DNA of 64,000 nt from Desulfobacteraceae bacterium 4572_130 (GTDB lineage Bacteria > Desulfobacterota > Desulfobacteria > Desulfobacterales > Desulfobacteraceae), in NCBI GenBank assembly GCA_002084425.1, contig NBLN01000004.1:1-64000 (forward strand), in the 5' to 3' direction. A program made the position numbers and the translations under genes. The notes under the pieces are model-generated. The model did not search any database. It was not told where the DNA came from and worked only from the letters and a program-made list of their open reading frames with translations. Of this stretch, positions 20,702-48,090 are shown piece after piece (position 1 is the stretch's first letter; every line of letters begins with the position of its first letter).

Positions 20702-20710
20702 TTATAAAAA

Positions 20711-22890: not shown

Positions 22891-23748
22891 ATGAAAAAAA
22901 ATATTTTAGGATTTTTCTGCATTTTCAGCCTATTTTTATTTTCAGGCTGTATTATGAAGCAAGACATTATTAATTGTCAAAATAGAATTACCACTCTTGA
23001 AATAAATAATGCAAAATATATTACAAAAGAAAAAGAATATGACAGAAAAATAAATTCATTATTAAATCAATTTGAAAACGATTTTAAAGTAATTAGTAAA
23101 TCTTATAGAGATAAATATGCTAGAATTAAAACTGAAATAAATACTCTTAAAAATAAAACACGTGTTTTAACTGGAAAATTTCAAGAATTAGAATACAAAT
23201 TTCCACAATATGGACAAAATACACCTGAAACACAAAAAGAAAAAATTCAAATAATAGACAATGCTATATCAAAAAATTATCAACGCTTGCTAGCCTTAGA
23301 AAAATATATAGGTTTTGAAAAAACAAAACAAAATCTTAATCAAAAAACAAAAGAAGAAAAGAAAAATACAAATCAATCTGAACAAGAATTATATAAACAT
23401 GCAAAAGAAAACCTGGATTCTGGAGATAATGATAAAGCTCGTACAATTTTTGAACAGTTTTTAACCCTTTATCCTGAATCAGACAATGTTGACAATGCTA
23501 TGTTTTGGATAGCTGACAGCTATTATAAGGATGAGTGGTATGAAAAATCAATTTTAGAATACCAAAAAGTGATTGAAAAATATCCAAATGGGAATAAAGT
23601 AGCAGCCGCACTTTTAAAACAAGGATGTGCTTTTGCAAAACTTGGTGAAAAAGCTAATGCAAAATTAATTCTAAAAGAACTTATAAAAAAATATCCTGAC
23701 TCCAATGAAATTAAAATTGCAAAAGAAAAACTTAAAAATCTTCAATAA
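22891..23748 (+). CDS. cpoB: CpoB/YbgF-like lipoprotein with coiled coil and TPRs
   Basis: CpoB coordinates peptidoglycan synthesis with Tol-driven outer-membrane constriction. The 285-residue protein has a lipoprotein signal ending FSGC (Cys about 20), a coiled coil (about 25-155) and C-terminal TPRs (about 165-285: ELYKHAKENLDSGD..., YPESDNVDNAMFWIADSYY). E. coli CpoB is soluble, so the lipobox is a difference, though lipobox forms occur in related bacteria. It is the last gene of the tol cluster and is separated from pal by a 266-bp gap holding F3. Confidence 0.88.
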   Translation: MKKNILGFFCIFSLFLFSGCIMKQDIINCQNRITTLEINNAKYITKEKEYDRKINSLLNQFENDFKVISKSYRDKYARIKTEINTLKNKTRVLTGKFQELEYKFPQYGQNTPETQKEKIQIIDNAISKNYQRLLALEKYIGFEKTKQNLNQKTKEEKKNTNQSEQELYKHAKENLDSGDNDKARTIFEQFLTLYPESDNVDNAMFWIADSYYKDEWYEKSILEYQKVIEKYPNGNKVAAALLKQGCAFAKLGEKANAKLILKELIKKYPDSNEIKIAKEKLKNLQ

Positions 23749-23756
23749 ACAGATTA

Positions 23757-23842
23757 TATATGTAAAGAACTTATAACTACTTAATATTCTTTCATGTTTT
23801 GTTGTGAAGCAAACTAAAATCAGCTCTGGCTCATGGCAGTTG
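23757..23842 (-). repeat. F1 dispersed two-hairpin element, copy 4
   Basis: A diverged F1 copy (GGCTCATGGCAG replaces the usual stem) directly after cpoB. An F3 copy follows it. Confidence 0.7.
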
Positions 23843-23854
23843 CTAAAGAATAAC

Positions 23855-23910
23855 AGAGACCTTTTGTAAAAATTACATATTTCAATGATAGAATTAGCTG
23901 ATCTTTGCAC
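23855..23910 (-). repeat. F3 dispersed repeat copy
   Basis: Starts AGAGACCTTTTGTAAAA and contains ATTTCAATGATAGAATTAGC. About 90 per cent identical by eye to the copy at 22703-22757. Confidence 0.7.
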
Positions 23911-24022
23911 AATTAAATTTTTATAAAAAAACAAATTTTTGATTAAAAATAGTGTTAGTTTTAATATCTTTTTATCAATAATACCTATAAATAAAAGGCG
24001 GTATCAATTGTCTAAATTTTAC

Positions 24023-24083
24023 AAGGTATTACAATACATCTTCACCATGAAATTTGAACAAATAGAACGATTGTGAAAAGCTA
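24023..24083 (-). repeat. F2 dispersed repeat copy
   Basis: Contains GGTATTACAATACATCTTC and ACCATGAAATTTGAACAAA. It shares an upstream block (CCTATAAATA...GGCG) with the copy at 25230-25292. Confidence 0.65.
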
Positions 24084-24482
24084 TTAGTCATATGCAAAAT
24101 AAACACCTAATTTGATATTTTTTCATTATTACTCATCAGCTTTTTTATGATAAAAGTGTTAACTGGGCTGTGTACTAGTAGGCTGAAACCTTTATCTTTA
24201 CAGATGTAAGTTAGAACATGCCAACCTATCTTTTTAAAAAAATAAAAAACTGCTTATTTTCATTTTGCCAATAAAAATTACATCTATTCATCCCAAATCA
24301 AGAAATTTTCTAGTCTGTTTTTAATGACGCAATTTTCAAAATAGGAACTGGCGGACTTTAAATTTTATTCAATCAAACTAATTCTAATCTAAATATAAGC
24401 TATATAAACTTAAGTATTTATTCTTTAGTAAACCCTAAGTGAGCTAGGAATTCACAATGAACAAATTGTATTTTTTAATAAT

Positions 24483-24959
24483 ATGTTAAAAGTTGTTGGA
24501 ATAGATCCAGGTCTTGCAAACACTGGAATAGGTTTAATTCAAGGAAACGGATTAACTATTACTAAATATTCTTTTGGTAATATAAAAACAGATAAAAAAG
24601 ATCCTATATGTTTAAGACTTAATATTATTTATACAAAAATCAAAGGATTTCTTTATGAGCAAAAGCCTGATATTGTAGTTATTGAAGATATTTTTTCTCT
24701 TGGGAAATATCCCATTACAAGTATTACTCTTGGCAAAGTTTCAGGTGTTCTAATTCTTGCTGCATTTAAGGCAGGAGCAAAAGTTAATGAAATTCCAGTA
24801 CGTCAGGCAAAAAAAATAGTTTCAGGCTCTGGAACCGCTGATAAATATCAAGTAGAAAAAACTATTAGAAATATTCTTAATCATCCAGAAAAAATAAAAC
24901 CCTTTCATGCATCTGATGCTCTAGCCCTAGCATTGTGTGAATATTATCGTTCCTCATAA
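24483..24959 (+). CDS. ruvC: Holliday-junction resolvase RuvC
   Basis: RuvC is the endonuclease that cuts Holliday junctions after RuvAB branch migration. The 158-residue protein has GIDPGLANTG with catalytic Asp8, VVIED with Glu68, and FHASDALALA with His142 and Asp145. All acidic catalytic residues are present. No strong ribosome site is seen. It is separated from ruvA by 457 bp of repeats, whereas the ruv genes are normally adjacent. Confidence 0.94.
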   Translation: MLKVVGIDPGLANTGIGLIQGNGLTITKYSFGNIKTDKKDPICLRLNIIYTKIKGFLYEQKPDIVVIEDIFSLGKYPITSITLGKVSGVLILAAFKAGAKVNEIPVRQAKKIVSGSGTADKYQVEKTIRNILNHPEKIKPFHASDALALALCEYYRSS

Positions 24960-24983
24960 TAGAGATCGAATCTTTAATAAGTT

Positions 24984-25074
24984 TTATATGAAAGAACATA
25001 ACTACTTAATATTCTTTTATATTTTGTTGTGAGGCAAACCAGGAACTAAAACAAGATCTGCTTGATGGCACTTG
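24984..25074 (-). repeat. F1 dispersed two-hairpin element, copy 5
   Basis: A diverged F1 copy after ruvC. Its short stem is broken (CTTGATGGCAC), but the A/T dyad TATATGAAAGAA...TTCTTTTATAT is still visible. Confidence 0.7.
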
Positions 25075-25229
25075 CTGATACTGAGAACAATAAATAATTT
25101 TAATACGATTGAAAAATAATACTTAGTATTTCTATAATTTGTCTATACTTTATAAGCCCTTTTTAAAAAATAAAATATTTTTAAATACCTATAAATAGGG
25201 CGTAAGCTTTTTTATCAAATATTAGGTTC

Positions 25230-25292
25230 AAGGTATTACAATACATCTCCACTATAAAATTTGCACAAAATTAAGCATTGTGCAAAGATCTC
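25230..25292 (-). repeat. F2 dispersed repeat copy
   Basis: A complete F2 copy: AAGGTATTACAATACATC, then AAATTTGCACAAAATTAAGC, then ATTGTGCAAAGATCT. Confidence 0.7.
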
Positions 25293-25416
25293 TTTATATT
25301 AAAAAATACACGGAATACAAGGATAGGTCTCCTAGTCCCTCCAAAAAATCTTATTTTATAACAGCTATTAGTATTACTAAACATTTTTTAGATTCATTAT
25401 ATAGAAGAAAATTAAT

Positions 25417-26046
25417 ATGATAAGTTATCTTAAAGGAATAGTGTTAAAAACTGAAAAAGATGGTGTTATTCTTAATGTAAATGATGTGGGCTATCAAATT
25501 TTACTTCCTATAATTGTTCTTGAAAAAATAATGGCTAAAAAACTAGAAAAACCTATTTCTCTATATATTTATTTTTACCAGACTGAAAGACAGCCAAAAC
25601 CTGTTTTGATTGGATTTAATTCAGAAGATGAAAAAGAATTTTTTCAACTTTTTATATCTGTAGATGCAATTGGTCCTTTAAAAGCTGTAAAAGCTATGGA
25701 AAAACCAGTTGCTGAAATTACTATGGCAATTGAGAGTAAAGATATTTCTTTTCTTTCAACTCTTAAAGGTATTGGTAAAAGAACTGCCCAAAAAATTGTT
25801 GCATCTCTTCATGGAAAGACAGATGGATTTTCCAGGTTAAATAAAAATATTTTAAGAGAACAATATAAACAAGCAAATCCTTCAACAAAAACAATTGCAA
25901 CTAAAGTTATTAAAGTGCTTGTAGAAAAGCTTGGTCATAATTTAACCAGCGCAAAAAAAATGGTTGATGAGGCTCTGGAGCGAAATATTTCTATATCAAC
26001 ACCTGAACAACTCTTTGATGAAGTTTATCAAAAAGGCGGTAACTAA
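25417..26046 (+). CDS. ruvA: Holliday-junction branch-migration protein RuvA
   Basis: RuvA binds the four-way junction and loads RuvB. The 209-residue protein has the N-terminal OB domain ([13 protein letters not shown]...GVGYQI-type block) and tandem helix-hairpin-helix motifs ([11 protein letters not shown] near 121). The C-terminal RuvB-contact domain ends the protein. Its last base is the first base of the ruvB ATG (TAATG), so the two are coupled. Confidence 0.94.
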
Positions 26047-27077
26047 TGGAAAATAGCATCATCTCATTTTCTTCTGAAAAAACAGATATGGTTTCTTCAA
26101 AAAATCATCCAATTGATCACGAAACTGAAATAATATCTTTAAGACCTGAAAAATTTGATAATTATATTGGACAAAAAGATACTGTTAAAACATTAAAAAT
26201 TGCAATTCAAGCAGCAAAAATAAGAGGAGAATCTCTAGATCATATTTTGCTTCATGGTCCTCCGGGTCTTGGCAAAACCACGATATCCCATATTATAGCT
26301 AGAGAAATGGGAGGCATGCTTATAGTAACATCAGGTCCTGCAATTGAAAAACCTGGTGATCTTATAGGTATGTTAACCAATCTTAATAAAGGCAGTATTC
26401 TTTTTATTGATGAAATACACAGGCTTCCAAAAACTGTTGAAGAATTTCTTTATCCTGCTATGGAGGACTTTGCAATAGATTTTGTTTTTGACAAAGGTCT
26501 TCATGCAAGAACTCACAGGTACAGACTTAAACAATTTTCTCTTATTGGTGCAACAACAAGAGTTGGACTTTTATCTTCTCCATTGCGTGATCGATTTGGT
26601 ATTTTCAGAAACCTTGATTTTTATAACATTGATGAACTTGTAAACATTATTAAAAGATCAGCTATATTGCTTAATGTTAAAATGGATAATAATGGACTAA
26701 TAGAGCTTGCAAAAAGATCAAGAGGGACCCCAAGAATTGCAAATAGAATTTTAAAGCGTGTCCGTGACTATGCCATGGTACATAGTCATGGGGAAATCAC
26801 AAAACAAACTGTTAATCAAGCTCTTGCCCTTGAAGGAATTGACACTAGGGGACTTACTGTTCTTGATAGAAATTATTTAAATACAATAATTAAATTTTAT
26901 AATGGAGGACCTGTAGGAATTGAGGCTATAGCTGCAACTTTGCAAGAAGAAACAGATACACTTGTGGATGTTATTGAACCTTATTTATTAAAAATTGGTT
27001 TAGTAATGCGTACTTCTTCTGGTCGTAAGGCATCTTACAATGCATATCAACATCTTGGGATTAATCATCAAAATTAA
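26046..27077 (+). CDS. ruvB: Holliday-junction helicase RuvB
   Basis: RuvB is the AAA+ motor of branch migration. The 343-residue protein has Walker [11 protein letters not shown] (about 73-82), Walker [10 protein letters not shown] (about 118-126), sensor [18 protein letters not shown] (about 166-183) and the C-terminal winged helix ([15 protein letters not shown]...). The length and order of motifs are normal. Confidence 0.96.
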
Positions 27078-27106
27078 CTTTTTACTCCTTGATTTATTAA
27101 ATATTA

Positions 27107-28156
27107 ATGAAAAATATTATAAAAATTAAAACTTGCTCACTTAAAATCATATTATTTTTATTTATTATAACTATTTTTTCAGAAACATTAATTTCTGCTT
27201 CTGAAAAAATACCAGAATCACTTGTAATGTTACCCAAAGGCATTAATGCTGTTATAGTTGAAAAAAATAAACAAAGAATTTATTTATATTCATCTAATAA
27301 TAATTTGATTTATAAAAAATTTGATTTTCCATGTTCAACAGGTGAAGTTTCTGGCATTAAATTACGACAAGGAGATAAAAAAACTCCTGAAGGTGTTTAT
27401 TTTTTTACAGATAAATATGAAGATAAAGATCTTACACCTGTTTATGGTAAAAAAGCTTTTCCAATTAACTATCCTAATTTTATAGATAAAATAGAAAAAA
27501 GAAAAGGAAGCGCCATATGGCTTCATGGCACAAATAAAAGATTAAAACCTATGGATTCTAATGGATGCATAGTAATGCAGAATAATGAGATACTTCAAAT
27601 ATCACCATTCATTGCCCTGGGTAAGACACCAATAATTCTTACTAATAAAATTTTTTATCAAAAAAAGGAAAATCTTAATAAACAAAAATATGAAATTCTC
27701 AAAATCCTTATCAAATGGATTAAGACAATTAATGAAGAAAGTTATGATGATTATATACAATTTTATGATTCTAATTATTTGCCTGAAACTAAATGGTGGA
27801 CAACATGGCAGAAAATTAAAAAAAAATTCAAAAAACAAGGACTTAAATTTTTAATTTTAACAGACAACATAGGAATATATAAAGAAAATCATATTTTTGT
27901 TCTTTTCTTTGATATGAATGTTAAACTTTTAGAAAATAGCATGAAAATTGGAAAAACAAAGTTATTTCTTAAAAAAGAGAATAATATATACAAAATAACA
28001 GGAGATTTTTTTGAAAATTTTTATAGACAAAAAGTTTCAAAAAAAAATTGCCTTATAAATGCAGTTGAAAAACTTGTCAATAACCTAAAAACAAATAAAG
28101 AATATATTAAAAAAATAAAGACTAGTAATTATATTTCTTTAAAAGAACAAAACTAA
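27107..28156 (+). CDS. L,D-transpeptidase (YkuD domain) with NTF2-like C-terminal domain
   Basis: L,D-transpeptidases crosslink peptidoglycan or attach proteins to it. The protein has an N-terminal signal segment (about 10-26), then a YkuD domain with IWLHGTN near 141 and the catalytic SNGCIV (Cys at about 154). The C-terminal part (about 200-330, WIKTINEESYDDYIQFY...) looks like the NTF2/SnoaL-like domain found in Cds6-type L,D-transpeptidases. The protein is likely periplasmic. It starts 29 bp after ruvB. Confidence 0.85.
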   Translation: MKNIIKIKTCSLKIILFLFIITIFSETLISASEKIPESLVMLPKGINAVIVEKNKQRIYLYSSNNNLIYKKFDFPCSTGEVSGIKLRQGDKKTPEGVYFFTDKYEDKDLTPVYGKKAFPINYPNFIDKIEKRKGSAIWLHGTNKRLKPMDSNGCIVMQNNEILQISPFIALGKTPIILTNKIFYQKKENLNKQKYEILKILIKWIKTINEESYDDYIQFYDSNYLPETKWWTTWQKIKKKFKKQGLKFLILTDNIGIYKENHIFVLFFDMNVKLLENSMKIGKTKLFLKKENNIYKITGDFFENFYRQKVSKKNCLINAVEKLVNNLKTNKEYIKKIKTSNYISLKEQN

Positions 28157-28193
28157 TAAATTTAATAGTATAAGGATAAAAAAACTTGTTCTT

Positions 28194-28288
28194 TATATAA
28201 AAGAACTTATAACTACTTAATATATTCTTTCATGTTTTATTGTAAGGCAAATCAAGAATTAAAAACCAGATCTGCTTTAGGGCAGTTA
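28194..28288 (-). repeat. F1 dispersed two-hairpin element, copy 6
   Basis: An F1 copy ending GGCAGTTATTC 17 nt before the start of the next gene, upstream of its GAGGG ribosome site. One pair in the short stem is lost. Confidence 0.75.
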
Positions 28289-34236: not shown

Positions 34237-37103
34237 GTTTCAATCCTTTATTTAGTGGAAGTGTCTCTGAAATAGGACTATGTGAATCCACAACATCCTG
34301 AATAGTCTTGGGTTTCAATCCTTTGTTTAATGGAAGTGTCTCTGAAATAGAATACTAACTAAAATAGTACAAGAATTACATCGAGGTTTCAATCCTTTGT
34401 TTAATGGAAGTGTCTCTGAAATACAATTATATAGGCACTGGAGAAATGTTTATACTCAGTTTCAATCCTTTGTTTAATGGAAGTGTCTCTGAAATAATTT
34501 ACCCTAAATTCTAACATTTAAACTTTTTTGTGTTTCAATCCTTTGTTTAATGGAAGTGTCTCTGAAATCTGTGCTTACAGCTTTACTTGAACATCTATAT
34601 TGTGGTTTCAATCCTTTGTTTAATGGAAGTGTCTCTGAAATATAACCTAAATATAATTCTATTAGGTTAAGATTGTTGTTTCAATCCTTTGTTTAATGGA
34701 AGTGTCTCTGAAATTTTTATTTTAATGGTTTAGTTAGTAAACAAACTATGTTTCAATCCTTTGTTTAATGGAAGTGTCTCTGAAATTCTTATACTTATAT
34801 TTTTGCTTACAATTTCAGCATGTTTCAATCCTTTGTTTAATGGAAGTGTCTCTGAAATCCGAGGATTTAACACAGTTAGCCCGTGCTATGATGATGTTTC
34901 AATCCTTTGTTTAATGGAAGTGTCTCTGAAATAACTTTCAAGATTGTGTTCTTTTATTTTAGCCTTAAGAGTTTCAATCCTTTGTTTAATGGAAGTGTCT
35001 CTGAAATAAGCTGTAAGCACAGGTTCGTATATTTCTACATGGGTTTCAATCCTTTGTTTAATGGAAGTGTCTCTGAAATCTTAAACAAGGGTATATAAAA
35101 AGTTTGGATTATTGTTTCAATCCTTTGTTTAATGGAAGTGTCTCTGAAATTGGCAATTTCAAAAGAATATCCGCTCTTGTCCCATCTGGTTTCAATCCTT
35201 TGTTTAATGGAAGTGTCTCTGAAATAATATGATAAGCCTTGTGAAAATACAAACCTATTGGTTTCAATCCTTTGTTTAATGGAAGTGTCTCTGAAATATA
35301 ATAGAACAATCCTTTTTGTTCATTATGTGTGGCTTGTTTCAATCCTTTGTTTAATGGAAGTGTCTCTGAAATAGATTGAAAAAAAGCACTTTATTATCTG
35401 ATTATGAAAGTTTCAATCCTTTGTTTAATGGAAGTGTCTCTGAAATCAAATTCGTAGCAAGACGCATTGTTTTTCTTTTCAGTTTCAATCCTTTGTTTAA
35501 TGGAAGTGTCTCTGAAATTGTATCAATAGCAGCAGTAACATCTGATTGACTTGCGTTTCAATCCTTTGTTTAATGGAAGTGTCTCTGAAATTTGTGCCTG
35601 CAAAATAGAACTGGGGAGATCAATTAAAGGTTTCAATCCTTTGTTTAATGGAAGTGTCTCTGAAATAGCAAGATGTAATAATAGTATATGAGGGGCTTAC
35701 AGTTTCAATCCTTTGTTTAATGGAAGTGTCTCTGAAATAAGTGTCTCTGAAATCATTAGAAAATACAAATTCAACAACACCATGGTCATAGTTTCAATCC
35801 TTTGTTTAATGGAAGTGTCTCTGAAATAATTCTTGAAACTCAACTTTAACTTGCCCCTCAACTTCGTTTCAATCCTTTGTTTAATGGAAGTGTCTCTGAA
35901 ATTTTAAACAGATTTGTCTGTAAGTGAAGACCCCTGATTGTTTCAATCCTTTGTTTAATGGAAGTGTCTCTGAAATAAGACATGAAGATCATGATCATTA
36001 GGAGTCTCTGAATGTTTCAATCCTTTGTTTAATGGAAGTGTCTTTCAATCCTTTGTTTAATGGAAGTGTCTCTGAAATCTTCATAGACTGCAATTGATCA
36101 TTTACAAGATCAGAGTTTCAATCCTTTGTTTAATGGAAGTGTCTCTGAAATTACCGTCCATTAAATTAATTACAGCATTTTCCTCAATGTTTCAATCCTT
36201 TGTTTAATGGAAGTGTCTCTGAAATGGCTGTATTTAATGCTTGTTCCCCACCTTCTTGTTTGTTTCAATCCTTTGTTTAATGGAAGTGTCTCTGAAATCT
36301 TTTTTCTTATTTTTTTAAAAAAAAACAATTATTGTTTCAATCCTTTGTTTAATGGAAGTGTCTCTGAAATCGTAGTTAATGGAAAATCATCTGAATAATC
36401 ATTCTTTTTGTTTCAATCCTTTGTTTAATGGAAGTGTCTCTGAAATAATTAATTATTTCTGCTGTTTTGGAGGGAGTTGAAAGTTTCAATCCTTTGTTTA
36501 ATGGAAGTGTCTCTGAAATTTTTTTATCCATTTTATATCCACTCCAGTATTTTATCGTTTCAATCCTTTGTTTAATGGAAGTGTCTCTGAAATTGTTTCT
36601 TTTATTTTTTAGCATTTAACCCCCTTAATGTTTCAATCCTTTGTTTAATGGAAGTGTCTCTGAAATTGGTGATGCAAGAAAACAAGTTTTTCAGGAAATG
36701 AGTTTCAATCCTTTGTTTAATGGAAGTGTCTCTGAAATAAAATAAAATTTCCTACCATTAATAAATTCACTAATTGTTTCAATCCTTTGTTTAATGGAAG
36801 TGTCTCTGAAATTTACAGGCTATAAATGTTTCCAATTCAAAAAATATAGTTTCAATCCTTTGTTTAATGGAAGTGTCTCTGAAATATCAATCAGACTTGT
36901 TGAAACAACAGGCAGATTTTGGTTTCAATCCTTTGTTTAATGGAAGTGTCTCTGAAATAATTCACGTCTTTTTTGTCAATTATTCGGTATTTCTCGTTTC
37001 AATCCTTTGTTTAATGGAAGTGTCTCTGAAATAATTTTAAGGATATCACCAATAATAAAAGGATATGTTTCAATCCTTTGTTTAATGGAAGTGTCTCTGA
37101 AAT
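34237..37103 (-). CRISPR. CRISPR array, 40 repeats, type I-B
   Basis: The 37-bp repeat reads GTTTCAATCC...GTGTCTCTGAAAT on the plus strand, so the crRNA-sense strand ends in ATTGAAAC, the usual I-B 5' handle. I count 40 repeats and 38 real spacers, mostly 34-38 bp. The repeat at 34237-34273 has two mismatches (TTTATTTAGT), which marks the leader-distal end. The array is therefore transcribed on the minus strand from near 37.1 kb, in line with the cas genes. Irregularities are a 15-bp partial repeat inside the gap at 35739-35790, and a truncated repeat fused to the next without a spacer at 36014-36078. Confidence 0.98.
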
Positions 37104-37285: not shown

Positions 37286-37867
37286 CTAGAATTCACATAA
37301 ATTTTTATAGGTGCAATCAAAACATTTATTTTTATACTTTGTAGGATTTGGAAAATAATTTTTTTCAAGGATTTCAAATATTTCCTCTACTGTTTTTTTT
37401 GCCTTGTCCTTTTGTTGTTTCCCTATTTTTATTTCTATTAATTTATTTTTTGTCCGCACATAAACTAAATATGCCCTTTCCACTTTTTTCTTATAATTTT
37501 CTTCTATTAATAATGAATAAAGTGCTTGTTGCATTTTATATGTCGTAAAAATTTTATTCTGCCAAAATGAATATTTATAATCAAGAGGTGCTGCCAAATT
37601 ATTTTCAAAAAATAAAACTTCATCAATCCTTCCCTTTAATCTTAATTTTTCAGATATTAAATATTCATCTATTTTTTTATCAACACATCCTATTTTTTTT
37701 CTTATGTAGTCTTTGTTTTGGACCATTTTTGCATTATGAATATTTCTTCCTTTTATTACAAGATGCCTGTCTTCTTCGTTTTGCTCTATTTTTAAAACAT
37801 TCATATAATAAATGAATCTTGGACAAAACATATATTCAATCACTTCTGATGGCGTTATATAAATCAT
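37286..37867 (-). CDS. cas4: Cas4 exonuclease of the adaptation module
   Basis: Cas4 trims prespacers and helps choose the PAM. The 193-residue protein has one N-terminal cluster Cys (YMFCPRF, about 15) and three C-terminal Cys (CFDCTYKNLC, about 182-191) for the 4Fe-4S cluster. The RecB-type nuclease residues are in GRIDEV (about 79) and PLDYK (about 94). Its start overlaps the cas2 stop by 4 bp. It is the gene nearest the leader. Confidence 0.92.
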   Translation of the reverse strand: MIYITPSEVIEYMFCPRFIYYMNVLKIEQNEEDRHLVIKGRNIHNAKMVQNKDYIRKKIGCVDKKIDEYLISEKLRLKGRIDEVLFFENNLAAPLDYKYSFWQNKIFTTYKMQQALYSLLIEENYKKKVERAYLVYVRTKNKLIEIKIGKQQKDKAKKTVEEIFEILEKNYFPNPTKYKNKCFDCTYKNLCEF

Positions 37868-38154
37868 ACAAAAAATGCTTTAATTTCATCTGTTATGAGT
37901 TTTTTATCAAAGGCTTGTCCAAGCAAAATACAATTTTTAAAATCATCTCTGCACATGGGAAAAATATAAACAGAATCTGTTTTTTTATTTATAACATCTT
38001 CAATTTGTGCGTTAATTTCTTTTCTCTGGGCAGGATTTAACTCTCCAAGAAAAACAGATTTTTGAACTCTGTAAATTCCTGCTTGTTTGCAAAACTTTAC
38101 GACTTTATTTCGCGATTTTGTAATTGAAATATCATACATCACCCAGGTTAACAT
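37864..38154 (-). CDS. cas2: Cas2 spacer-integration protein
   Basis: Cas2 is the central dimer of the Cas1-Cas2 integrase. The 96-residue protein starts MLTWVMYDIS, the ferredoxin-like first strand with Asp8, and continues with RVQKSVFLGEL (about 29-39), typical of the family. It is translation-coupled to cas4 and begins 35 bp after cas1. Confidence 0.94.
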   Translation of the reverse strand: MLTWVMYDISITKSRNKVVKFCKQAGIYRVQKSVFLGELNPAQRKEINAQIEDVINKKTDSVYIFPMCRDDFKNCILLGQAFDKKLITDEIKAFFV

Positions 38155-38189: not shown

Positions 38190-39173
38190 TTAATAGTCCC
38201 TTTTTTTACCTATAAGATAATTTGCAAAGGAATGTGCATCTGCCTTTATCATATTAATCTGTTTCATTCGTTTGTTTTTATATTGAACTATTTTATCAAA
38301 ATTTTCATATAAATTTTCAATTAATAGTCTCTTTCCATCTTCATTTAAAAGAAAACCATTTTTTACTTTTACACAATGTTTGTCTTCCTTTATTTTCTTC
38401 CTTGAAAAAAGATAAAACACAGGCTCATCAACAAAAATTCTATACTGCTCTATAAAATCAAAAACCAGAGATTTTTTATTATAATTATCAGAATGTAAAA
38501 ATCCAATATAAGGATCAAGACCTGCTATAATAAGGGCAATTTCCACCTTTGAATAAAGCACACCATAACCATAATTTAAAAAAGCATTAAACAAATCTCT
38601 GGCAGGTCTGGTACTTCTGCCTTTAAAGGCATATTGTTCGGGAATGACTTTTGCCAAAATCTTTAAATAATTTTTCGAGGCATTACCTTCATAAGCCATA
38701 ATAGAATTTGTATTTTCCAAAAGACTTCCATCAATATTTTGTATTTTTTCTATATTTTCATTAATTTTTAAAAGCTCATTAGAATAGTCATCAGATTTTG
38801 GTCGTTTAAGGAGCAATTTTTCCAAAAAATTTATTTGATTTTGTATTTTTCTGGACACCCATTTTTTTATAATTTCAAGGGCATTATCCTCTGTATATAA
38901 TTCTAATAATTTTCTTCTTATTGCTGTAGTGCTTCCAAAACCAGGTGCCCAAACTCTTCCATATGGCTTTCCATATTTATCTAAGAAAACAATGTCTATA
39001 TTGTTCTTTACTGCAAGATTTATGGCATCAGTAGAAATTGTTGCAGCATTTGAAATAACAAGGGATGATATTTTTTTAGGAGAAAAATTTTTCTTAATAT
39101 CACCAATTTTAATTTCAAAAATTCCTTCTTTGATATGAATATATGAACCAAATTTATCTATAAAAAGTTGCAT
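38190..39173 (-). CDS. cas1: Cas1 spacer-integrase
   Basis: Cas1 is the metal-dependent integrase that inserts new spacers. The 327-residue protein has the N-terminal beta domain and LVISNAATIS...AVKNNIDIVFLD (about 38-66), then MAYEGNASKNYLK (catalytic Glu about 164), then the LHSDNYNKKSLVFDFIEQYR block (catalytic His and Asp, about 227-246). The first 84 bp, including the start codon, are duplicated at about 39686-39769, upstream of a toxin-antitoxin remnant. Confidence 0.95.
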   Translation of the reverse strand: MQLFIDKFGSYIHIKEGIFEIKIGDIKKNFSPKKISSLVISNAATISTDAINLAVKNNIDIVFLDKYGKPYGRVWAPGFGSTTAIRRKLLELYTEDNALEIIKKWVSRKIQNQINFLEKLLLKRPKSDDYSNELLKINENIEKIQNIDGSLLENTNSIMAYEGNASKNYLKILAKVIPEQYAFKGRSTRPARDLFNAFLNYGYGVLYSKVEIALIIAGLDPYIGFLHSDNYNKKSLVFDFIEQYRIFVDEPVFYLFSRKKIKEDKHCVKVKNGFLLNEDGKRLLIENLYENFDKIVQYKNKRMKQINMIKADAHSFANYLIGKKRDY

Positions 39174-39251
39174 AGTGTTTATTTTATCACCAAATTATTT
39201 AACTATATTAATGAGCAAATCTGCCCATATTCAAAAATGATATATTTATTC

Positions 39252-39374
39252 TCAAGTTAGCTCCTTTAAAAATTCACTCGGAGTCAAAATGATTAATTTT
39301 GAATTTTTATAAAATTTTGGTCGTTTTAAAATAACATCAAGAAAGATATTCGTATCTATCAAGCATTTTTTCAT
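39252..39374 (-). pseudogene. Internally deleted PIN-domain toxin (VapC-like), 40 residues
   Basis: The short frame starts at an ATG that overlaps the antitoxin stop (ATGA). It reads MKKCLIDTNIFLDVILKRP, a PIN-domain N-terminus with the first catalytic Asp, and after about 26 residues goes straight into LIILTPSEFLKELT, a typical PIN C-terminus. Full PIN toxins are about 130-145 residues, so about 100 residues are missing, with the other acidic catalytic residues. The toxin must be inactive. A clean in-frame internal deletion is the simplest explanation. Confidence 0.75.
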
Positions 39375-39640
39375 TCATATTTCTCCTGCAAATATTTCAG
39401 CTTTTCTTCCTTCCAGTTAGACATCTCAATGCCCTCAAGCAATCCATCCAAAGGATCAAAAACAGATTTTCTTTTTATTATTTCCTTTATATTAACTTTT
39501 GGAAATTCTTCTTTATTTGATATTGTTTTATCAACATTATCTTCTTCAAGAAAAGTAACTAATACTTTGCTTCGAGAAACTTTTGGCGGATTTAAAAAAT
39601 TTATTTTTCCATTATCATATATTGCTTCTAATGTTTCCAT
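39371..39640 (-). CDS. Antitoxin of a PIN-type toxin-antitoxin pair
   Basis: The protein reads METLEAIYDNGKINFLNPP..., the N-terminal form of small antitoxins that pair with PIN toxins, and ends in a charged helix (MSNWKEEKLKYLQEKYE). I chose the ATG at 39640 over the in-frame one at 39652 because family members start METxEAIYxNG. It lies between cas3 and cas1, where no such gene belongs. The toxin partner is truncated, so the antitoxin is probably a leftover. Confidence 0.7.
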   Translation of the reverse strand: METLEAIYDNGKINFLNPPKVSRSKVLVTFLEEDNVDKTISNKEEFPKVNIKEIIKRKSVFDPLDGLLEGIEMSNWKEEKLKYLQEKYE

Positions 39641-39661
39641 AGCAGCCCCCATTTAATCTGT

Positions 39662-39763
39662 TTATATGTTAATCCAATTTAATAGAATATCATCAATTTT
39701 GATTTCAAAAATTCCTTCTTTGATATGAATATATGAACCAAATTTATCTATCAAAAGTTGCAT
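39662..39763 (-). pseudogene. Duplicated 5' fragment of cas1
   Basis: The frame of 33 codons begins MQLLIDKFGSYIHIKEGIFE, almost identical to the Cas1 N-terminus (MQLFIDKF...). It diverges after about residue 26 and stops. About 84 bp around the start (39686-39769) match cas1 (39096-39180) with about four differences by eye. It directly precedes the antitoxin gene, so the toxin-antitoxin remnant lies between two copies of the cas1 5' end. Confidence 0.8.
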
Positions 39764-39806
39764 AGTGTTCTAAAATTAAATATTTTTTATTTTTTAAAAA
39801 AATCTT

Positions 39807-42191
39807 TTAAACAAAATCAACGCTTTTTTCTAAGGGAAGTTGTGAATCAATATTAAACCCAGTTATATTATCATAAAATTCTGCAACACGATTATTTCGA
39901 AGATAATAAATATTTGTATCATGTTCAGCAGGTAAGCATTTTTTAGGGATATTAATAATATATTCAAAAAGTTTTCTTCTTACTTGTTTTAAAAGAGCAT
40001 TTTTATTAAACCCATTCTCCATTTCAAGTGTATTTTGATATTTTAGCCAATAATCTTTAGCTTTTTCATCAAGTTCAACAAAAATGGAATCTGAATAATC
40101 GTTATCAATAATATCTAATTCTATTTTCCCCTCCTCTTCTTGATATTTTAAACACTCAATTCTCTTAAGAAGTATATTAGAAGATTCTTGAGAACCTCCA
40201 ACTTTTATTTCTTTAAAATATTGATATGCTAAATCATAAAATTCTGATTCATAAATAATTTCTTTGTTTTTTAAAACTTTTTTAGTTTTCTGTTTTAAAA
40301 AATCTTTATAAATTCCATCTGTTGTCCAATTATTTGAATCTTTAAGAGAGTATAAAATCACTTTCCCTTTCACGCCATTTCTATTCTCACGATTACAACG
40401 ACCGCATGCCTGAAAAATACTATCTAATGGAGCAAAATCTCTAACAACAATATCTAAATCAATATCAACACCCGCTTCAACAAGTTGAGTAGATACAACA
40501 AGAATTGGTTTCCCTTTTTCTTTGTTCTTAATATATTCAATTCTTCTTAATCTTTCTTTTGGAATGATATGAGATGATAAAAAGAAAACTTTATGAACGA
40601 TATTATTTTTTGATAATACATCAAACAATTGTTTTGCCGAACGAATTGTATTCATTATAAAGAGAATATTTTTTTCTGAGTTATCCATTGCTAATGTTAT
40701 AGCTGAATCACAAAATTCGTCCCAATTCATTCTTCCTTTATTTAAGTTTAATACATCTAATTCAATACGGCTGAGTTTTTGGAACATCTCTTTTTTACCT
40801 TTAATCAATTCAATAATTTCATTATTTTCTTCTGAAAAAATCAATGGCATTGTTGCTGTAACTAATATTATTTTTGAATTTAACCATTTCGCTGTTTTTG
40901 ATAAAATTGTTTTAATCAAACTCCAATATTTATGAGGTATTGATTGAATCTCATCAAGAATAATAACAGCATTGCTAAAACGATTAAATTTTCTTAAACT
41001 TGAATTTTTGTATGAAATAAGAGAATAGATCAATTGAACAAAGGTAGTAACTGTTATTTTACTTTCCCAACCTTCAATTAAATGTAAAGCTTCATTTGGT
41101 AAATATTCCTTAATTATATTTTCCTCTTTAACTATTTTATACGAAATATCTGCTAAATGATGATGTTTTAATAAAACACCTGTACTATCAGGTAGTTTTG
41201 CAATCTCACAAATCTTATCAAACACTTCAAAATTTTGATCAATTACTGATGTAAATGGCAGGCAATAAATAATATGGTCATGGTTAAACTTTTCACACAA
41301 TTTTAATGCCGCATTAAGTGACGTAATAGTTTTACCTGATCCTGTTGGAATATTAATCGATAAAATTCTATTATCTGATTTTAAATTATTAATTGTTTCA
41401 ATTGCAGAGTAAAAAGCATTTTCGCGAATAACATCAATGGGTTTTTCAAGATTATTATTAAAGCTGTTTTTAAATGATTCCACATTTTTACTTTTTAACA
41501 ATTCAAATTGAGGAACTTTATCATCTTTTAAAATAGCATCTGTTTTATCAGCTTGGAGCAGTATTGAATATAATAAATTTACTACAAAATAATGCTCAAT
41601 TGTAAAATTTCGGCTTAATCGCTTTATTTTCAAGGGTGTTCTTGGTTGAAAACATTTAACTGATTGTTTTATAAAATCTTTATTTATAAAATCTTTATTT
41701 ATAAAACTTGTATAATCACTATTTGAAACAATATTTTGAAATTCATTAAAATTAAGATTCTCTATCTGTAACAGGACATTGCTTAAATCTTTATCTTTAA
41801 ATGTTAGTAAAATTTTATAATCATTTAAATTTCCATGGTGTTGCCTAACAATTATTAATCCAATTAATTGTAAAATCAGATTGTTAGGTATCTTTTCTTG
41901 TAAAATACCAAAAGCCATTAATGCAGAAATTAAGCCGTGCCTGCGTTTTTTTCTATCCTCCTCAGTAGAACTAACATCAGGATTTAAAAGATATTCTTGA
42001 AAAAAAGAAGTCGCTTTCCCAAAATCATGAAAAAGAGAGGTTATAGAAACAACCCTTCTTAATTCTTCACGCTTAAAATTAGAAAAATCAAATTTTAGTT
42101 TATCAAATAATAAAAGAGCTTTATTTTGAACTCCTAAAATATGATCTTTCAACAATCTGTCTGGATGTGATTTTAGTTTATAATTGTACAA
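39807..42191 (-). CDS. cas3: Cas3 HD nuclease-helicase
   Basis: Cas3 unwinds and degrades DNA marked by Cascade. The 794-residue protein has an N-terminal HD domain (HDFGKATSFF, about 54-63, and HGLISALMAFG, about 85). The DEAD-like helicase has TGSGKTITSLNAALK (about 285) and DEIQSIP (about 417), and the C-terminal RecA domain has STQLVEAGVDIDLDIVVRD (about 568) and a QACGRCNR-type motif. A small in-frame tandem duplication gives FINKDFINKDF near 165. Its start overlaps the cas5 stop by 14 bp. Confidence 0.94.
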   Translation of the reverse strand: MYNYKLKSHPDRLLKDHILGVQNKALLLFDKLKFDFSNFKREELRRVVSITSLFHDFGKATSFFQEYLLNPDVSSTEEDRKKRRHGLISALMAFGILQEKIPNNLILQLIGLIIVRQHHGNLNDYKILLTFKDKDLSNVLLQIENLNFNEFQNIVSNSDYTSFINKDFINKDFIKQSVKCFQPRTPLKIKRLSRNFTIEHYFVVNLLYSILLQADKTDAILKDDKVPQFELLKSKNVESFKNSFNNNLEKPIDVIRENAFYSAIETINNLKSDNRILSINIPTGSGKTITSLNAALKLCEKFNHDHIIYCLPFTSVIDQNFEVFDKICEIAKLPDSTGVLLKHHHLADISYKIVKEENIIKEYLPNEALHLIEGWESKITVTTFVQLIYSLISYKNSSLRKFNRFSNAVIILDEIQSIPHKYWSLIKTILSKTAKWLNSKIILVTATMPLIFSEENNEIIELIKGKKEMFQKLSRIELDVLNLNKGRMNWDEFCDSAITLAMDNSEKNILFIMNTIRSAKQLFDVLSKNNIVHKVFFLSSHIIPKERLRRIEYIKNKEKGKPILVVSTQLVEAGVDIDLDIVVRDFAPLDSIFQACGRCNRENRNGVKGKVILYSLKDSNNWTTDGIYKDFLKQKTKKVLKNKEIIYESEFYDLAYQYFKEIKVGGSQESSNILLKRIECLKYQEEEGKIELDIIDNDYSDSIFVELDEKAKDYWLKYQNTLEMENGFNKNALLKQVRRKLFEYIINIPKKCLPAEHDTNIYYLRNNRVAEFYDNITGFNIDSQLPLEKSVDFV

Positions 42192-42891
42192 TATAATCTT
42201 TTCCTACTTTTGTAACATTTCCAACAATTGCTTTAATTGATTTGCCATCACTATCAAAAAGATATTCACCATATTTTTCAACAATTCTACTATTATTCGA
42301 TTTCATTCTAACTGGAATATTATTAATAAATATTTTACGATTTTCAAAATCAATTTCTTCATTTTTACCAATTGAACGCTTGGAAATTATGGAATTTATT
42401 TCATAGAATTTATTATTTGATTTTACTTTTTCTTCTTCAAAAAAACCAATATATTTAAAATCTGCAAGATTCCATGCTAAACCTAATGATGCAGTATAAA
42501 AAGATTCATGATTTTGAAGATTTGCAACTAATTTTGAAAATAATTCTGCATTTTCCCAGGAAAACCACACTCTAAATTTTCCATCTTTAATAAATTCCAT
42601 TGTAGTTTGTTTGTGTGCTTTAAAACGATAAAAATGTTTTACACTTGTAGTTTTTAAAGTATTAAAAGGAATAACTACTTTTTTTATTACATCCCGTACT
42701 CCAATTGCTAATGAATATGATTCTTTTTGAAAATACTCCCAATATTTATTTTTATCTAATCCAATAATTGCAGAAATTAATCCAACAATTGCAGTTCCAG
42801 TTGGGATGCTAAATGTTTGCGGAGACATTGTTGTAAAGGGCTTCTTAAATTGTGCATAATCTGCCCAAATATCAAAAACAACATATTTCAT
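42178..42891 (-). CDS. cas5: Cas5 (type I-B, Cas5h/b)
   Basis: Cas5 holds the 5' handle of the crRNA in Cascade. The 237-residue protein starts with a RAMP-type strand (VVFDIWADYAQFKKP) and has the family segment IPTGTAIVGLISAIIGL (about 29-45). It lies between cas7 and cas3, the usual I-B order, with a 9-bp gap after cas7. Confidence 0.92.
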   Translation of the reverse strand: MKYVVFDIWADYAQFKKPFTTMSPQTFSIPTGTAIVGLISAIIGLDKNKYWEYFQKESYSLAIGVRDVIKKVVIPFNTLKTTSVKHFYRFKAHKQTTMEFIKDGKFRVWFSWENAELFSKLVANLQNHESFYTASLGLAWNLADFKYIGFFEEEKVKSNNKFYEINSIISKRSIGKNEEIDFENRKIFINNIPVRMKSNNSRIVEKYGEYLFDSDGKSIKAIVGNVTKVGKDYIVQL

Positions 42892-42900
42892 AATTTTCTC

Positions 42901-43923
42901 CTACAATGTTAATTTTATCCAATCTGATGGAATATCAACTCTCAACCCGCTGTCCATAAAATATTCAATTGATTCAATTTTATCATTATTTTCTTTAAGC
43001 GCATCATTTAATTCACTCATATCTAATTTAAAATCTTTAATACTACGAATTTTAAATTCATTATCAAAATTTGTCAGTTTGATTTTTTTATCCAAATCTC
43101 CAATAAAAAAATTTGAGTATCTATAATTTACTTTAACTAAGAAGCGTGGCATTTGTCCAAATTTACTTCTACTTATCAAATTTTTTGTTCCAAGCCACAT
43201 TCCTTCAAGAAGTAATTTAACATCAGCATCTGTCATCTTTGTATGTTGTGCTGCATTTTGATTTATAATTCCATGGAAAGCTATAAATGAATATGGAAGA
43301 ATATATTCAGGTGCAAGAGAACCTTGCTTTTTTTTTTCTCCAGATGACATTGTAAAGGAATGTCCATTAGGCTTTATCCTTACCTCGTGTAACGATCTTC
43401 CTATTTTAAATTGCACAGGTCCTGTATAAGTTATTGAGCTTGTAAATTTCCCCCCCCCCATTTTTGTTTTTGGAAATTCAACAGCGTAAGTTGCACCAAA
43501 TAAACGGGTATCAATATTTTCATTTAAAATTGTTTTTCCTATAATTTTTTTAAGGTTTTGAGCATCTTTTATTGTAATTTTATCTTTAAGATATTTTTTA
43601 ACCAATTCAATTTCATTTTTATCAGCTAATCCATCTGTTTTGATAAAATCCATTACTCGTTGTTTAATATCCTTAACATATTCATCTTCATCTTTGATTT
43701 CACGAATAAAAATATCTTTTCCATTTTTACCATTAAATCCTTTGTGTTCAAAAAAATAATCACGAATAGTTCGTTTTAACCGAACATCTGTTACAAAATT
43801 AATATTTGTTTCCTCATCAATTCTTGGTTTATTTTCATCAAGTGGATCTCCGTTTGGATTTGCATCTGTAATATCATAACAAAAAAGTAATTCACTGCGG
43901 TTTTTAATTGTTTCACTCATCAT
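42901..43923 (-). CDS. cas7: Cas7 (Csh2-type) Cascade backbone protein
   Basis: Cas7 forms the crRNA-coating backbone. The 340-residue protein starts with the Csh2 signature (LLFCYDITDANPNGDPLDEN, about 13-32), then VTDVRLKRTIRDYF (about 44-57), then the central loop with GGGKFTSSITYTG. A run of ten G on the coding strand (43450-43459) encodes MGGG at about residues 155-158. Its length variation would shift the frame. It overlaps cas8b by 11 bp. Confidence 0.93.
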   Translation of the reverse strand: MMSETIKNRSELLFCYDITDANPNGDPLDENKPRIDEETNINFVTDVRLKRTIRDYFFEHKGFNGKNGKDIFIREIKDEDEYVKDIKQRVMDFIKTDGLADKNEIELVKKYLKDKITIKDAQNLKKIIGKTILNENIDTRLFGATYAVEFPKTKMGGGKFTSSITYTGPVQFKIGRSLHEVRIKPNGHSFTMSSGEKKKQGSLAPEYILPYSFIAFHGIINQNAAQHTKMTDADVKLLLEGMWLGTKNLISRSKFGQMPRFLVKVNYRYSNFFIGDLDKKIKLTNFDNEFKIRSIKDFKLDMSELNDALKENNDKIESIEYFMDSGLRVDIPSDWIKLTL

Positions 43924-45646
43924 TTTCTCCTTTTTCTTTTTCTTTATTTTTAAATTTTTTGTTTAGAGACATTCCCATTGCAAAGTAAAAACTAATTTCA
44001 TCTACACTTTGTAATTTAAGTTTTTGCTCACTTATTTCTATTAATTGAAAAATATTTTTTTCTAAATCATAATAATAATTTGACTTGTATTGTTCCAATT
44101 TTTCAATTGCCTCAGGCAATAAACGCTTAATTGCGCTAACATCTAATTTTAATCCATTTAAACGACTTCTAAAGGGTCTTGATTTAAGATTTATATATTG
44201 TATATCCATTACATTTTGAGCTAAAACTCCTGTTAGAAATACTGCTTTTTTCCAATTTGCATCATAAAAATCTGGATGCAATTGGAAATACTCTTCATAT
44301 TTATTTTGCATTATTACCTCCATTTTATTTTTTGTTGTTTCAATCAAACTCATTTCATATAAAAATTTAAGAAATATCATTGCTTTCAAACAATCAAACT
44401 GCCTTTTTTCTTTCAGATATTTTTGAATATCTGATTTTTCAATACGATGATTTTCAGCTAATCGTTCAGAAATTTGATAATAAATAAATGATTTACTTAT
44501 TTTCTGGCCCTTTAAAATTTTTGTTGTAATATCTAAAAAATCATTATTAATCTCCACGTTTTTCTTTGCTTTAATTATTTTTTGAAATCGTGAGGGCAAA
44601 ATATCTTCAGCTTCTTGTAAAATTTTAAACTCACTATTTTTTACTTTATAGAAAAAAAAGGTAAAAGTAATTTGATCCTTTTGTTTTGATAATGTTTCAA
44701 AAATATCATCTTCCAAATCACCTCTTATTTTTTGTTTTTCTTCATTTTTTTTGCTTAATGATAAATCCTTAAAATCTTCCTCAATATCTAATAAATTTTC
44801 ATAAAAATCACCTTTGTCTAATGTTGGACTTGGAATTAAAAAATATTTATTTCCATAAAAATACCTATCAAAATTTTTATTTAATTTTTCTTTTGCAAGG
44901 CGAAGATGATTGGAACAAATAGGACAAACAGGATAATTTTTCCATGTTTTATCTTGCTGAAATCCTCCAGCAATATAGGCAAATTCATTTGCCGAATAAA
45001 ATGCAAAAGTACTACAAAAACCGTATAATTTTTTTGAAGTTTTACCACAAATATAGCAAGGAATATTTTCTCCAATAGAAGTTTTATTATGTTTTGAAAA
45101 ATATTCTTTATCTCTATCATTTGAGTTTTTATAAAAATCAAGAATTGGATAAAATAATGGAGAATCTCCAATAAATAGATTGTTAATTTTTATAGTAAAT
45201 AAATTATTTTTTTCTGCTGATAAAAATTCAAAAATCTCTTCTTCTAATAAATCTCTATTTTTATCAATTTTTAAAAAATTTAAAACAGGTTTTAAATCAG
45301 AATTCATTTCAGTATTATTTTCTATAGTTCCTATAAATTTATTAAAGGATTTTCTAATATTTTCTTTACATTCCATTTCCTTCTTATTGAAAAATACGCT
45401 ATATGTTGCAAATGGTGATCTTGAATTACTACCTGCTTTTTTATATAATATTTTATTATTTTTCTTTTGCTCAAATTCAATCGTATCAGATTCTATAAAA
45501 TTACAAATGCCATCTTTTAAATCAAATTCTAAAACAATAATATTTGCTTCCTTTAAAGACAGATTTAATCCCAATAAATTTTCCTTTTCTTCCTCTTTTT
45601 CCTTTTTTGATACATATTTTCCTAATATTTTTAATTTATTTATCAT
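43913..45646 (-). CDS. cas8b: Cas8b (Csh1/TM1802-type) Cascade large subunit
   Basis: Cas8b recognises the PAM and nucleates R-loop formation. The 577-residue protein has an N-terminal Lys/Glu-rich part and a four-Cys zinc site (CYICG, about 197-201, and CPIC, about 240-243) diagnostic of the TM1802 family. A helical C-terminal small-subunit-like region (about 400-577) follows. Position between cas6 and cas7 supports the call. Confidence 0.88.
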   Translation of the reverse strand: MINKLKILGKYVSKKEKEEEKENLLGLNLSLKEANIIVLEFDLKDGICNFIESDTIEFEQKKNNKILYKKAGSNSRSPFATYSVFFNKKEMECKENIRKSFNKFIGTIENNTEMNSDLKPVLNFLKIDKNRDLLEEEIFEFLSAEKNNLFTIKINNLFIGDSPLFYPILDFYKNSNDRDKEYFSKHNKTSIGENIPCYICGKTSKKLYGFCSTFAFYSANEFAYIAGGFQQDKTWKNYPVCPICSNHLRLAKEKLNKNFDRYFYGNKYFLIPSPTLDKGDFYENLLDIEEDFKDLSLSKKNEEKQKIRGDLEDDIFETLSKQKDQITFTFFFYKVKNSEFKILQEAEDILPSRFQKIIKAKKNVEINNDFLDITTKILKGQKISKSFIYYQISERLAENHRIEKSDIQKYLKEKRQFDCLKAMIFLKFLYEMSLIETTKNKMEVIMQNKYEEYFQLHPDFYDANWKKAVFLTGVLAQNVMDIQYINLKSRPFRSRLNGLKLDVSAIKRLLPEAIEKLEQYKSNYYYDLEKNIFQLIEISEQKLKLQSVDEISFYFAMGMSLNKKFKNKEKEKGENDE

Positions 45647-45685
45647 ATTTCAAACTCCTTTTTTTTCATTTCCAATCCTTATGTT

Positions 45686-46342
45686 TCACACCACCCCAAA
45701 CCCCCTTGCAACAGATTTGCCAAGTCCGAGCAGAGTTGGGATATGGAAACTCACTTTAAAATTACACTCAAAGCATTGCATTTTTTGGTTCTTGAAATTT
45801 ACTTTTATTGGTTTTAAATTGTTGATTTTGCAGGAAAGTTTGGTTGTGTCTGGGATTGTATAATTGAAATTTTTGCTGAGGGATAAAAGATTGCCAACCA
45901 GGATATTTTCAAGAAGCATCTGCTTTTGGGCAAAAATTTTGGAATTGATATATTTTTTGTGGTTTTCTTGATTTAGAGCCATCCAGGGAGAAATGAATTT
46001 ATATTTTATGTGATTTTTGGAAATGCCAAAGTCATATTCTTTTAAGGATATTTGTTTTTCATTACATGGATAAATTTTGGAGCCTATTTTAATTTCTTCC
46101 ACCTCAAAAAATATCTTTTTAAGAAGATTTAATCCATCACCAAAGCCGATGAGAGCGGCTTTGCCATTGATATTCCGATATTGTATATTGGGAAGTTTGT
46201 AAATAAATTTATCGCCATTATGATTATGCAAATTTACATATTCGGGATATTTGTTGGCAAAAAATCCCCTAAGCTTTGGAATATCCCTTGGATAAATTGC
46301 AATGTCTTGAAATATTATTTTTAAAATTTTTACTTTCATCAT
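45686..46342 (-). CDS. cas6: Cas6 crRNA-processing endoribonuclease
   Basis: Cas6 cuts pre-crRNA within the repeats. The 218-residue protein ends in the Gly-rich loop typical of Cas6 (PTLLGLGKSVARGFGVV). The middle contains a RAMP-type segment (IQYRNINGKAALIGFGDG, about 53-70). It is the first gene of the cas operon on the minus strand; 39 bp separate it from cas8b. Upstream lies a transposase remnant. Confidence 0.88.
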   Translation of the reverse strand: MMKVKILKIIFQDIAIYPRDIPKLRGFFANKYPEYVNLHNHNGDKFIYKLPNIQYRNINGKAALIGFGDGLNLLKKIFFEVEEIKIGSKIYPCNEKQISLKEYDFGISKNHIKYKFISPWMALNQENHKKYINSKIFAQKQMLLENILVGNLLSLSKNFNYTIPDTTKLSCKINNLKPIKVNFKNQKMQCFECNFKVSFHIPTLLGLGKSVARGFGVV

Positions 46343-46377: not shown

Positions 46378-46702
46378 ATTTAAGGTCGGTCGTCAATAAT
46401 GGACACCAAACTCCTCATGCTGCAAGTTGATTTTTATAATATTCTCTCTTAAATTCTAATGGCGACATATACCCAAGTCTCTTTTGTATGCGTTGCCGAT
46501 TGTAAAAAATCTCGACAAATTCTGTTATCTCTTTTATCGCCTGTTGCCTGTTTTTATTTCATATCTTCGATGATGAACAAGCTCATTTTTTAAAGTTCCC
46601 TCAAAGCTTTCCATAGGAGCATTATCATAACAATTACCTTTTTTGCTTATGGAATATCTCATTCCAAACTGTTTCAGTAGTTTTCTATACTTGTGAGGAG
46701 CA
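46378..46702 (-). mobile_element. IS3-family transposase remnant
   Basis: On the minus strand the sequence encodes the end of an IS3/IS150-type DDE transposase: YRKLLKQFGMRYSISKKGN, CYDNAPMESFEGTLKNELVH, then after a frameshift RQQAIKEITEFVEIFYNRQR and IQKRLGYMSPLEFKREYY, with stop at 46415-46417. The first part of the transposase is missing. The short segment GGTCGGTCGTCAATAATGGA after the stop may be the terminal inverted repeat. It is dead, but it marks a mobile-element scar at the cas6 side of the CRISPR-Cas island. Confidence 0.85.
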
Positions 46703-47487: not shown

Positions 47488-47909
47488 TCTAAACCTGCCT
47501 CAGCTTGAAAAGATATTTTTGTTATTCCTGCTTGTCTAATTTTTTCCATAACCATAAACAATTTTTCATACGATACTTTTTTATCTCCAAATAAAAGAGT
47601 ATTTGAAAAAGGATATTCTTTTTTTAATTTCTTAAGTTTTTCTGTGAGATTCTCAGTACTTACCAAATTTTTATTTATATAAATATTTTCCAGTTTATCA
47701 ATTGTAATACTAATTTTTTCATATTTACTAGTTTTAACTTTTAATGATTCTGAATCGGGCAGATTAACAGGCAGACTATTGTGTACAGCCATAGAAAGCA
47801 TGGCATAAATAAAAAAAATAAGAAGAAGAAAAATCACATCAATTAATGCCAGCATTTCTATGCGGGGACCAGGTGATTTATAATTATTTAGTTTCATTTT
47901 CTTTTCCAT
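47484..47909 (-). CDS. exbD: ExbD biopolymer transport protein
   Basis: ExbD is the single-pass partner of ExbB. The 141-residue frame has IEMLALIDVIFLLLIFFIYA (about 17-36) with the channel Asp, and a periplasmic domain ending in GITKISFQAE. Two starts are possible: ATG 47909, directly abutting the F1 repeat, and ATG 47897 (MKLNNYKSPG), which has GGAAAAG before it and matches the family length better. An F1 element fills the space before it. Confidence 0.88.
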   Translation of the reverse strand: MEKKMKLNNYKSPGPRIEMLALIDVIFLLLIFFIYAMLSMAVHNSLPVNLPDSESLKVKTSKYEKISITIDKLENIYINKNLVSTENLTEKLKKLKKEYPFSNTLLFGDKKVSYEKLFMVMEKIRQAGITKISFQAEAGLD

Positions 47910-47910
47910 T

Positions 47911-48090
47911 AACTGCCATAAGGCAGATTTATTTTTTACTTCCTAGTTTATCTCACAACAAAATATGAAAAAATATTAACTAAGGTATAAGTTCTTTCAT
48001 ATTAACTGCCATAAGGCAGATTTATTTTTTACTTCCTGGTTTGTCTCACAATAAAACATAAAAAAAATATTAACTAGATATAAGTTCTTT
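47911..48090 (+). repeat. F1 dispersed two-hairpin element, tandem copies 7 and 8
   Basis: Two head-to-tail F1 copies (47911-48002 and 48003-48090) fill the exbB-exbD gap, both with intact CTGCC-ATAA-GGCAG stems. The second runs past the exbB stop, so the last codons of exbB (ELISS, then stop) are F1 sequence. The first ends next to the exbD start. Confidence 0.85.

Follow-up and report, generated by a model that had tools for sequence, protein, structure and literature searches.

A decayed toxin-antitoxin pair lies between two copies of the cas1 start in a type I-B cas operon of a Desulfobacteraceae bacterium

CreTA is an RNA toxin-antitoxin system that guards CRISPR-Cas and whose crRNA-like antitoxin carries a degenerate repeat. 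Pairs of vapBC genes are also interspersed in the cas cassettes of Sulfolobales, for which a guarding role has been suggested (PMC4390879). Elsewhere, an AF2212-like (COG2880) antitoxin gene beside a PIN gene is a well-established combination (PMC2701414). Restriction-modification genes are described (PMC3874152 and PMC3031569, with Nobusato 2000 cited therein) as inserting with long and variable target duplications on the order of 100 bp. Toxin-antitoxin pairs are devoid of a transposase or integrase, which raises the question of how they reach new genomic sites. A literature search combining long target duplication with toxin-antitoxin systems returned restriction-modification work and reviews only, a result that is not proof of absence.

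The stretch analysed (referred to as the window) comprises 64,000 nucleotides of contig NBLN01000004.1 from Desulfobacteraceae bacterium 4572_130. Its minus strand carries, in this order, cas6b, cas8b (TM1802), cas7, cas5, cas3, an insert, cas1, cas2, cas4 and a CRISPR array (Table 1). The type I-B gene set is complete (cas8b/Csh1-TM1802, cas7 Csh2, cas5b, cas3, cas6b, cas1, cas2 and cas4). A sequence-only reading of the window had proposed that this operon contains a toxin-antitoxin module with a copy of the cas1 5′ end on either side, one functional cas1 being left. This layout was borne out: the downstream cas1 is intact and full-length, and it is the only close cas1 in the assembly. Breakage of cas1 by a self-targeting spacer was rejected, as none of the 38 spacers matched the window and none convincingly matched the 462 kb sampled of the same genome. 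Inside the array, a CRISPR repeat is partly duplicated (28 nt) with no spacer between (36012-36082). Upstream of the operon, an integrase-core transposase has left a remnant (rve_3, E 5e-4) just ahead of cas6 (46534-46662), and the start of a small ORF holds a tandem 93-nt duplication at 82% (47880-48065).

Table 1. Positions of the features of the window, and small genes bracketed by repeats or copied gene ends in other loci.
Locus	Feature	Coordinates	Strand	Remark
Window	CRISPR array, about 39 repeats of GTTTCAATCCTTTGTTTAATGGAAGTGTCTCTGAAAT	34238..37103		
Window	cas4	37286-37867	(-)	Profile search
Window	cas2	37864-38154	(-)	Profile search
Window	cas1, intact, 327 aa	38190..39173	(-)	TIGR00287 match, 1.8e-83
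Window	Copy A, 84 bp at the real cas1 start	39096..39179	(-)	Repeat search
Window	Insert between copies A and B, 506 bp, 26% G+C	39180..39685	(-)	
Window	PIN_3 toxin remnant, 40 aa	39252..39374	(-)	Profile matches of both ends
Window	Antitoxin-like frame, 93 aa	39371..39652	(-)	AF2212-like through a weak link
Window	Copy B, duplicated cas1 5′ end	39686..39769	(-)	Adjoins cas3; 81/84 identical to copy A
Window	cas3 (HD + helicase)	39807..42191	(-)	Ends 37 nt ahead of copy B; profile search
Window	cas5, cas7, cas8b (TM1802), cas6b	42178..46342	(-)	Profile search
L081	BrnT-BrnA between cas5 and cas3			Preceded by the cas3 RBS and first codons in a 33-nt copy, 82%; whole cas3 follows
L074	ORF6N behind cas2			Whole cas2 on one side, its final 101 nt repeated on the other, 79%
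L134, L135, L132	ORF6N between whole cas6 and copied cas6 3′ end (148-172 nt)			87%, 89% and 73%, respectively
L143	HigBA just upstream of cas1			Within a 64-nt, 97% repeat, terminator-like in look
L141	Intact MazE-PIN just upstream of cas1			Within a 44-nt, 82% repeat
L064	PIN-RHH			116-nt, 88% repeat: RBS and codons 1-32 of the following gene
L153	BrnT locus			94-nt, 96% repeat
L166	BrnT locus			70-nt, 91% repeat
L172	BrnT locus			114-nt, 99% repeat

A repeat search recovered the two copies as one direct family, 96% identical and with a spacing of 590. The next direct pair by length in the 5 kb, CRISPR repeats aside, was 35 nt at 71%, thereby excluding chance as the source of the 84-bp pair. 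Each copy starts 6 nt 5′ of the ATG and consists of this 6-nt leader and cas1 codons 1-26, and similarity is lost immediately past either end. Alignment confirmed that near-identical 84-bp copies flank the module, as had been claimed, with two corrections: the copies differ at three positions (one synonymous and two amino-acid-changing) rather than about four, and the first copy ends at 39179 rather than 39180. The upstream copy does open a Cas1-like frame that soon stops, since it runs for 33 codons (26 of Cas1 and 7 foreign, from 39763 to about 39662) before a stop codon and is dead. A tandem duplication of cas1, followed by landing of the module between the two genes and deletion of the upstream copy down to 78 nt, would also leave direct repeats of the gene start. 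However, such a history requires three events, the copies have just 6 nt in common upstream of the ATG, and an adjacent cas1 pair occurs in no relative examined, making this origin highly improbable.

The 84-bp sequence was found at this single locus in the whole 1.94-Mb assembly (80% complete) and nowhere else as an unrelated repeat, and the possibility of a dispersed repeat was rejected on this ground. A weak second match at C5, apparently within ligA, was taken as chance. Among the 462 kb sampled of the same genome, no other copied gene end was seen at 95% identity or above, and the closest other direct repeat in form was a 97-bp, 96% intergenic one (C3). AT-rich intergenic repeats of 40-97 nt do recur in this genome (window 20622-28284 and L095:3243-3749).

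Between cas3 and cas1, the antitoxin frame announced by the earlier reading is present and intact. An alternative start at the ATG at 39640, with GGGGG just upstream, would give a protein of 89 aa. The antitoxin has no Pfam or NCBIfam match of its own and does not reach the curated cut-off of PF01954. Its only homologue found (in G231) is AF2212-like at E 0.004, below the cut-off, and precedes a PIN gene. Relatives were detected in none of 86 family genomes, in one of 395 phylum genomes (a weak match) and in no plasmid or viral contig. The tail of the antitoxin, LKYLQEKYE, is similar to the tails of antitoxins adjoining PIN_3 genes, and its single-sequence structure model was poor (pLDDT 49). 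Compared with the AF2212-like (COG2880) and PIN pairing, the window shares the antitoxin N-terminus, the gene order and the overlap, but its antitoxin falls below the profile thresholds and its partner is a PIN_3 gene that has suffered a deletion.

The codon-position G+C of the antitoxin frame (0.42/0.21/0.20) is like that of the cas genes. Together with its intactness, this is consistent with an antitoxin kept as a regulator or anti-addiction factor, the insert serving as a functional leader of cas1-cas2-cas4 however it arrived. A search found no terminator within the insert, and solo antitoxins, which are frequent, may become exapted (PMC2701414). Promoter-like sites in the insert were nevertheless not commoner than in shuffled sequence, and we consider such a regulatory role rather improbable.

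The toxin start overlaps the antitoxin stop (ATGA, 39371-39374), and a small antitoxin gene overlapping a PIN gene is the layout of type II VapBC-like pairs. In the remnant, the 25 N-terminal residues of a PIN_3 nuclease are fused in frame to its 15 C-terminal ones, and the roughly 90 residues in between are gone. At its N-terminus, residues 4-29 match PIN_3 (E 0.0045), and against a profile built on PIN_3 toxins of its own bacterial family the remnant scored E 1.7e-8 in a one-sequence search. The last 15 residues, KLIILTPSEFLKELT, align to the PIN_3 tail GFKxSxLPIYSPxEML of same-family toxins, and their tail score is the best among 1679 frames of the window (E 0.02). The toxin thus proved to be a PIN remnant as had been stated, but not one simply truncated at its 3′ end, for both ends are kept and the middle is lost. 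The catalytic acidic set is incomplete, the first motif (IDTN) alone being left. The codon-position G+C of the remnant is flat, though the frame is short. In PIN_3 toxins, both the GFKxS stretch and the residues that close the N-terminal segment look like the junction FYKNSK, so that the toxin may plausibly have been shortened by a deletion between short similar sequences.

The origin that we consider probable is that the toxin-antitoxin module entered cas1 with a long target duplication and that its toxin was gutted later. A small type II module, made of an AF2212-like antitoxin and a PIN_3 VapC-like toxin, would have entered the type I-B cas operon at cas1 codon 26 and left the surrounding 84 bp on either side. 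The copies would then stem from the insertion event itself, which would permit landing inside a gene while one whole cas1 is kept downstream. The module was presumably once complete; after insertion, the toxin would have lost about 90 codons in frame, leaving the antitoxin and a probably harmless stub. The duplication itself could have arisen from a staggered break that was filled in, or from recombination with a donor allele in which the module was already present. Arrival of the module together with a duplicated cas1 5′ end stands as the simplest interpretation, and relatives show this pattern again with unrelated genes; its mechanism is unproven.

Restriction-modification insertions have in common with these loci a small addiction-type module, long direct target copies on the order of 100 bp and a target gene left whole. 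In the window, such copies bracket the module as 84 bp at 96% around the 506-bp insert. In contrast, the genes inserted here are type II toxin-antitoxin or ORF6N genes, the copies span 33-172 nt, and several lie in cas operons. Our comparison set comprised 38 related cas loci with no same-genus genome, the Cas1 relatives being at best about 49% identical, and no pre-insertion allele was seen among the genomes searched. Comparison of the three differences between the window copies with the relatives gave no clear ancestral state. By tblastn, the window antitoxin was found in none of the 38 loci; no relative has it beside cas1, and none has it between cas3 and an unduplicated cas1.

The same architecture is nonetheless observed in other cas operons, around genes unrelated to the window module (Table 1). 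The whole gene is found downstream of a copied 5′ end and upstream of a copied 3′ end. By our count, the copied cas ends in the window, L081, L074 and the group L134/L135/L132 amount to four independent events in cas genes, the ORF6N insertions of that group probably being one ancestral event.

The differences between copies bear on another origin, namely homology-anchored illegitimate recombination. DNA of a relative whose cas1 was preceded by the module would have recombined within cas1 and been joined illegitimately to the resident gene at codon 26. The upstream fragment would then be the resident start, and the intact cas1 would begin with the donor start, yielding the same layout. Copies in L074, L135 and L064 differ mostly at synonymous sites (pS 0.55/0.26/0.25 and pN 0.13/0.06/0.06, respectively; P about 0.06, 0.11 and 0.14), a tendency that points in these three loci towards recombination with a diverged donor rather than decay after duplication. 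However, this excess is significant in no single locus and does not appear in the copies of L132, the three differences in the window do not discriminate, some of the repeats, at 96-99% identity, are non-coding (L143, L153 and L172), and no donor was found among the genomes searched. On balance, we regard this origin of the window locus as unlikely.

Several other small genes occupy related cas loci. ORF6N genes lie behind cas2 or cas6 in L074, L132, L134, L135 and L146, and an AbiEii-like nucleotidyltransferase gene lies upstream of cas1 in L150. Within the same taxonomic order, an intact pair of MazE-type antitoxin and PIN toxin lies between cas2 and cas6 in L133 and L146, and a MazE-type antitoxin occupies the same place in L132 and L135. 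With L141, such antitoxins, mostly with a PIN gene, recur in five type I-B cas operons of that order and make a candidate conserved association. Genes for 23S rRNA intervening-sequence proteins (PF05635) occur between cas1 and cas2 in L131:9269-9649, L144:8081-8464 and L147:7796-8176, those of L144 and L147 adjoining short imperfect repeats.

The sequence-only reading had also mentioned toxin-antitoxin pairs that guard CRISPR loci and had suggested a recent or failed version of these. The pair has indeed decayed, its toxin being gutted, and judging from the lost active site the window pair should be unable to protect the operon through addiction. That this copy acts as a guard is unsupported, given that the middle of the toxin is missing and that the search for a CreTA-like repeat was negative: the best partial repeat match near the cas genes was no better than in shuffled sequence, and identity with CreTA was rejected for that reason. 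The locus resembles CreTA in having toxin-antitoxin genes inside a type I-B cas locus, but the CreTA toxin is an RNA, whereas the window holds protein genes with a dead toxin and no repeat-like sequence above chance. With Sulfolobales (PMC4390879) it shares VapBC-type genes inside cas operons, but it belongs to a bacterium and a type I-B system, and it has another antitoxin family, a gutted toxin and a duplicated cas end. By analogy with the suggestion made for the vapBC genes of Sulfolobales, the intact pairs of related cas operons could guard by addiction.

The footprint also occurs outside cas operons. Applying one filter to all loci (repeat of 30-300 nt, gap of 300-1300, E up to 1e-10), we found 4 of 58 toxin-antitoxin loci bracketed by repeats compared to 4 of 840 control centres (odds ratio 15, Fisher p 9e-4), in a test that was devised after the pattern had been noticed, that rests on small numbers (4 loci) and in which control centres lying close together are not independent. 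Among the control hits are a repeat within an hsdS-like gene and a pair that was counted twice. A broader reading, which we put forward tentatively as possible rather than probable, is that transposase-free type II toxin-antitoxin pairs and ORF6N genes are autonomous units that insert at gene ends and duplicate 30-170 nt of the target, a general route of spread that they share with restriction-modification genes. Type I-B cas operons would be a favoured landing place, because every cas gene stays whole after landing. The event leaves a readable footprint, namely direct repeats built from the end of the neighbouring gene, and the recurring layout hints at how selfish pairs enter operons without breaking them. 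If general, this footprint would show for each module where it inserted and how long the duplicated target was, would serve as its clock, and would explain how small selfish genes build up in useful operons, cas among them, and yet leave these working.

Elsewhere in the same genome, L091:7440-11580 (C2 27440-31580) contains four related repeats of roughly 120 nt parted by single small genes or pairs. These genes code for a nucleoside-deoxyribosyltransferase-like protein, ParE with a small antitoxin-like frame, TrmO, and an intact BrnA with a broken BrnT, and the whole resembles an integron-like or serially inserted cassette array.
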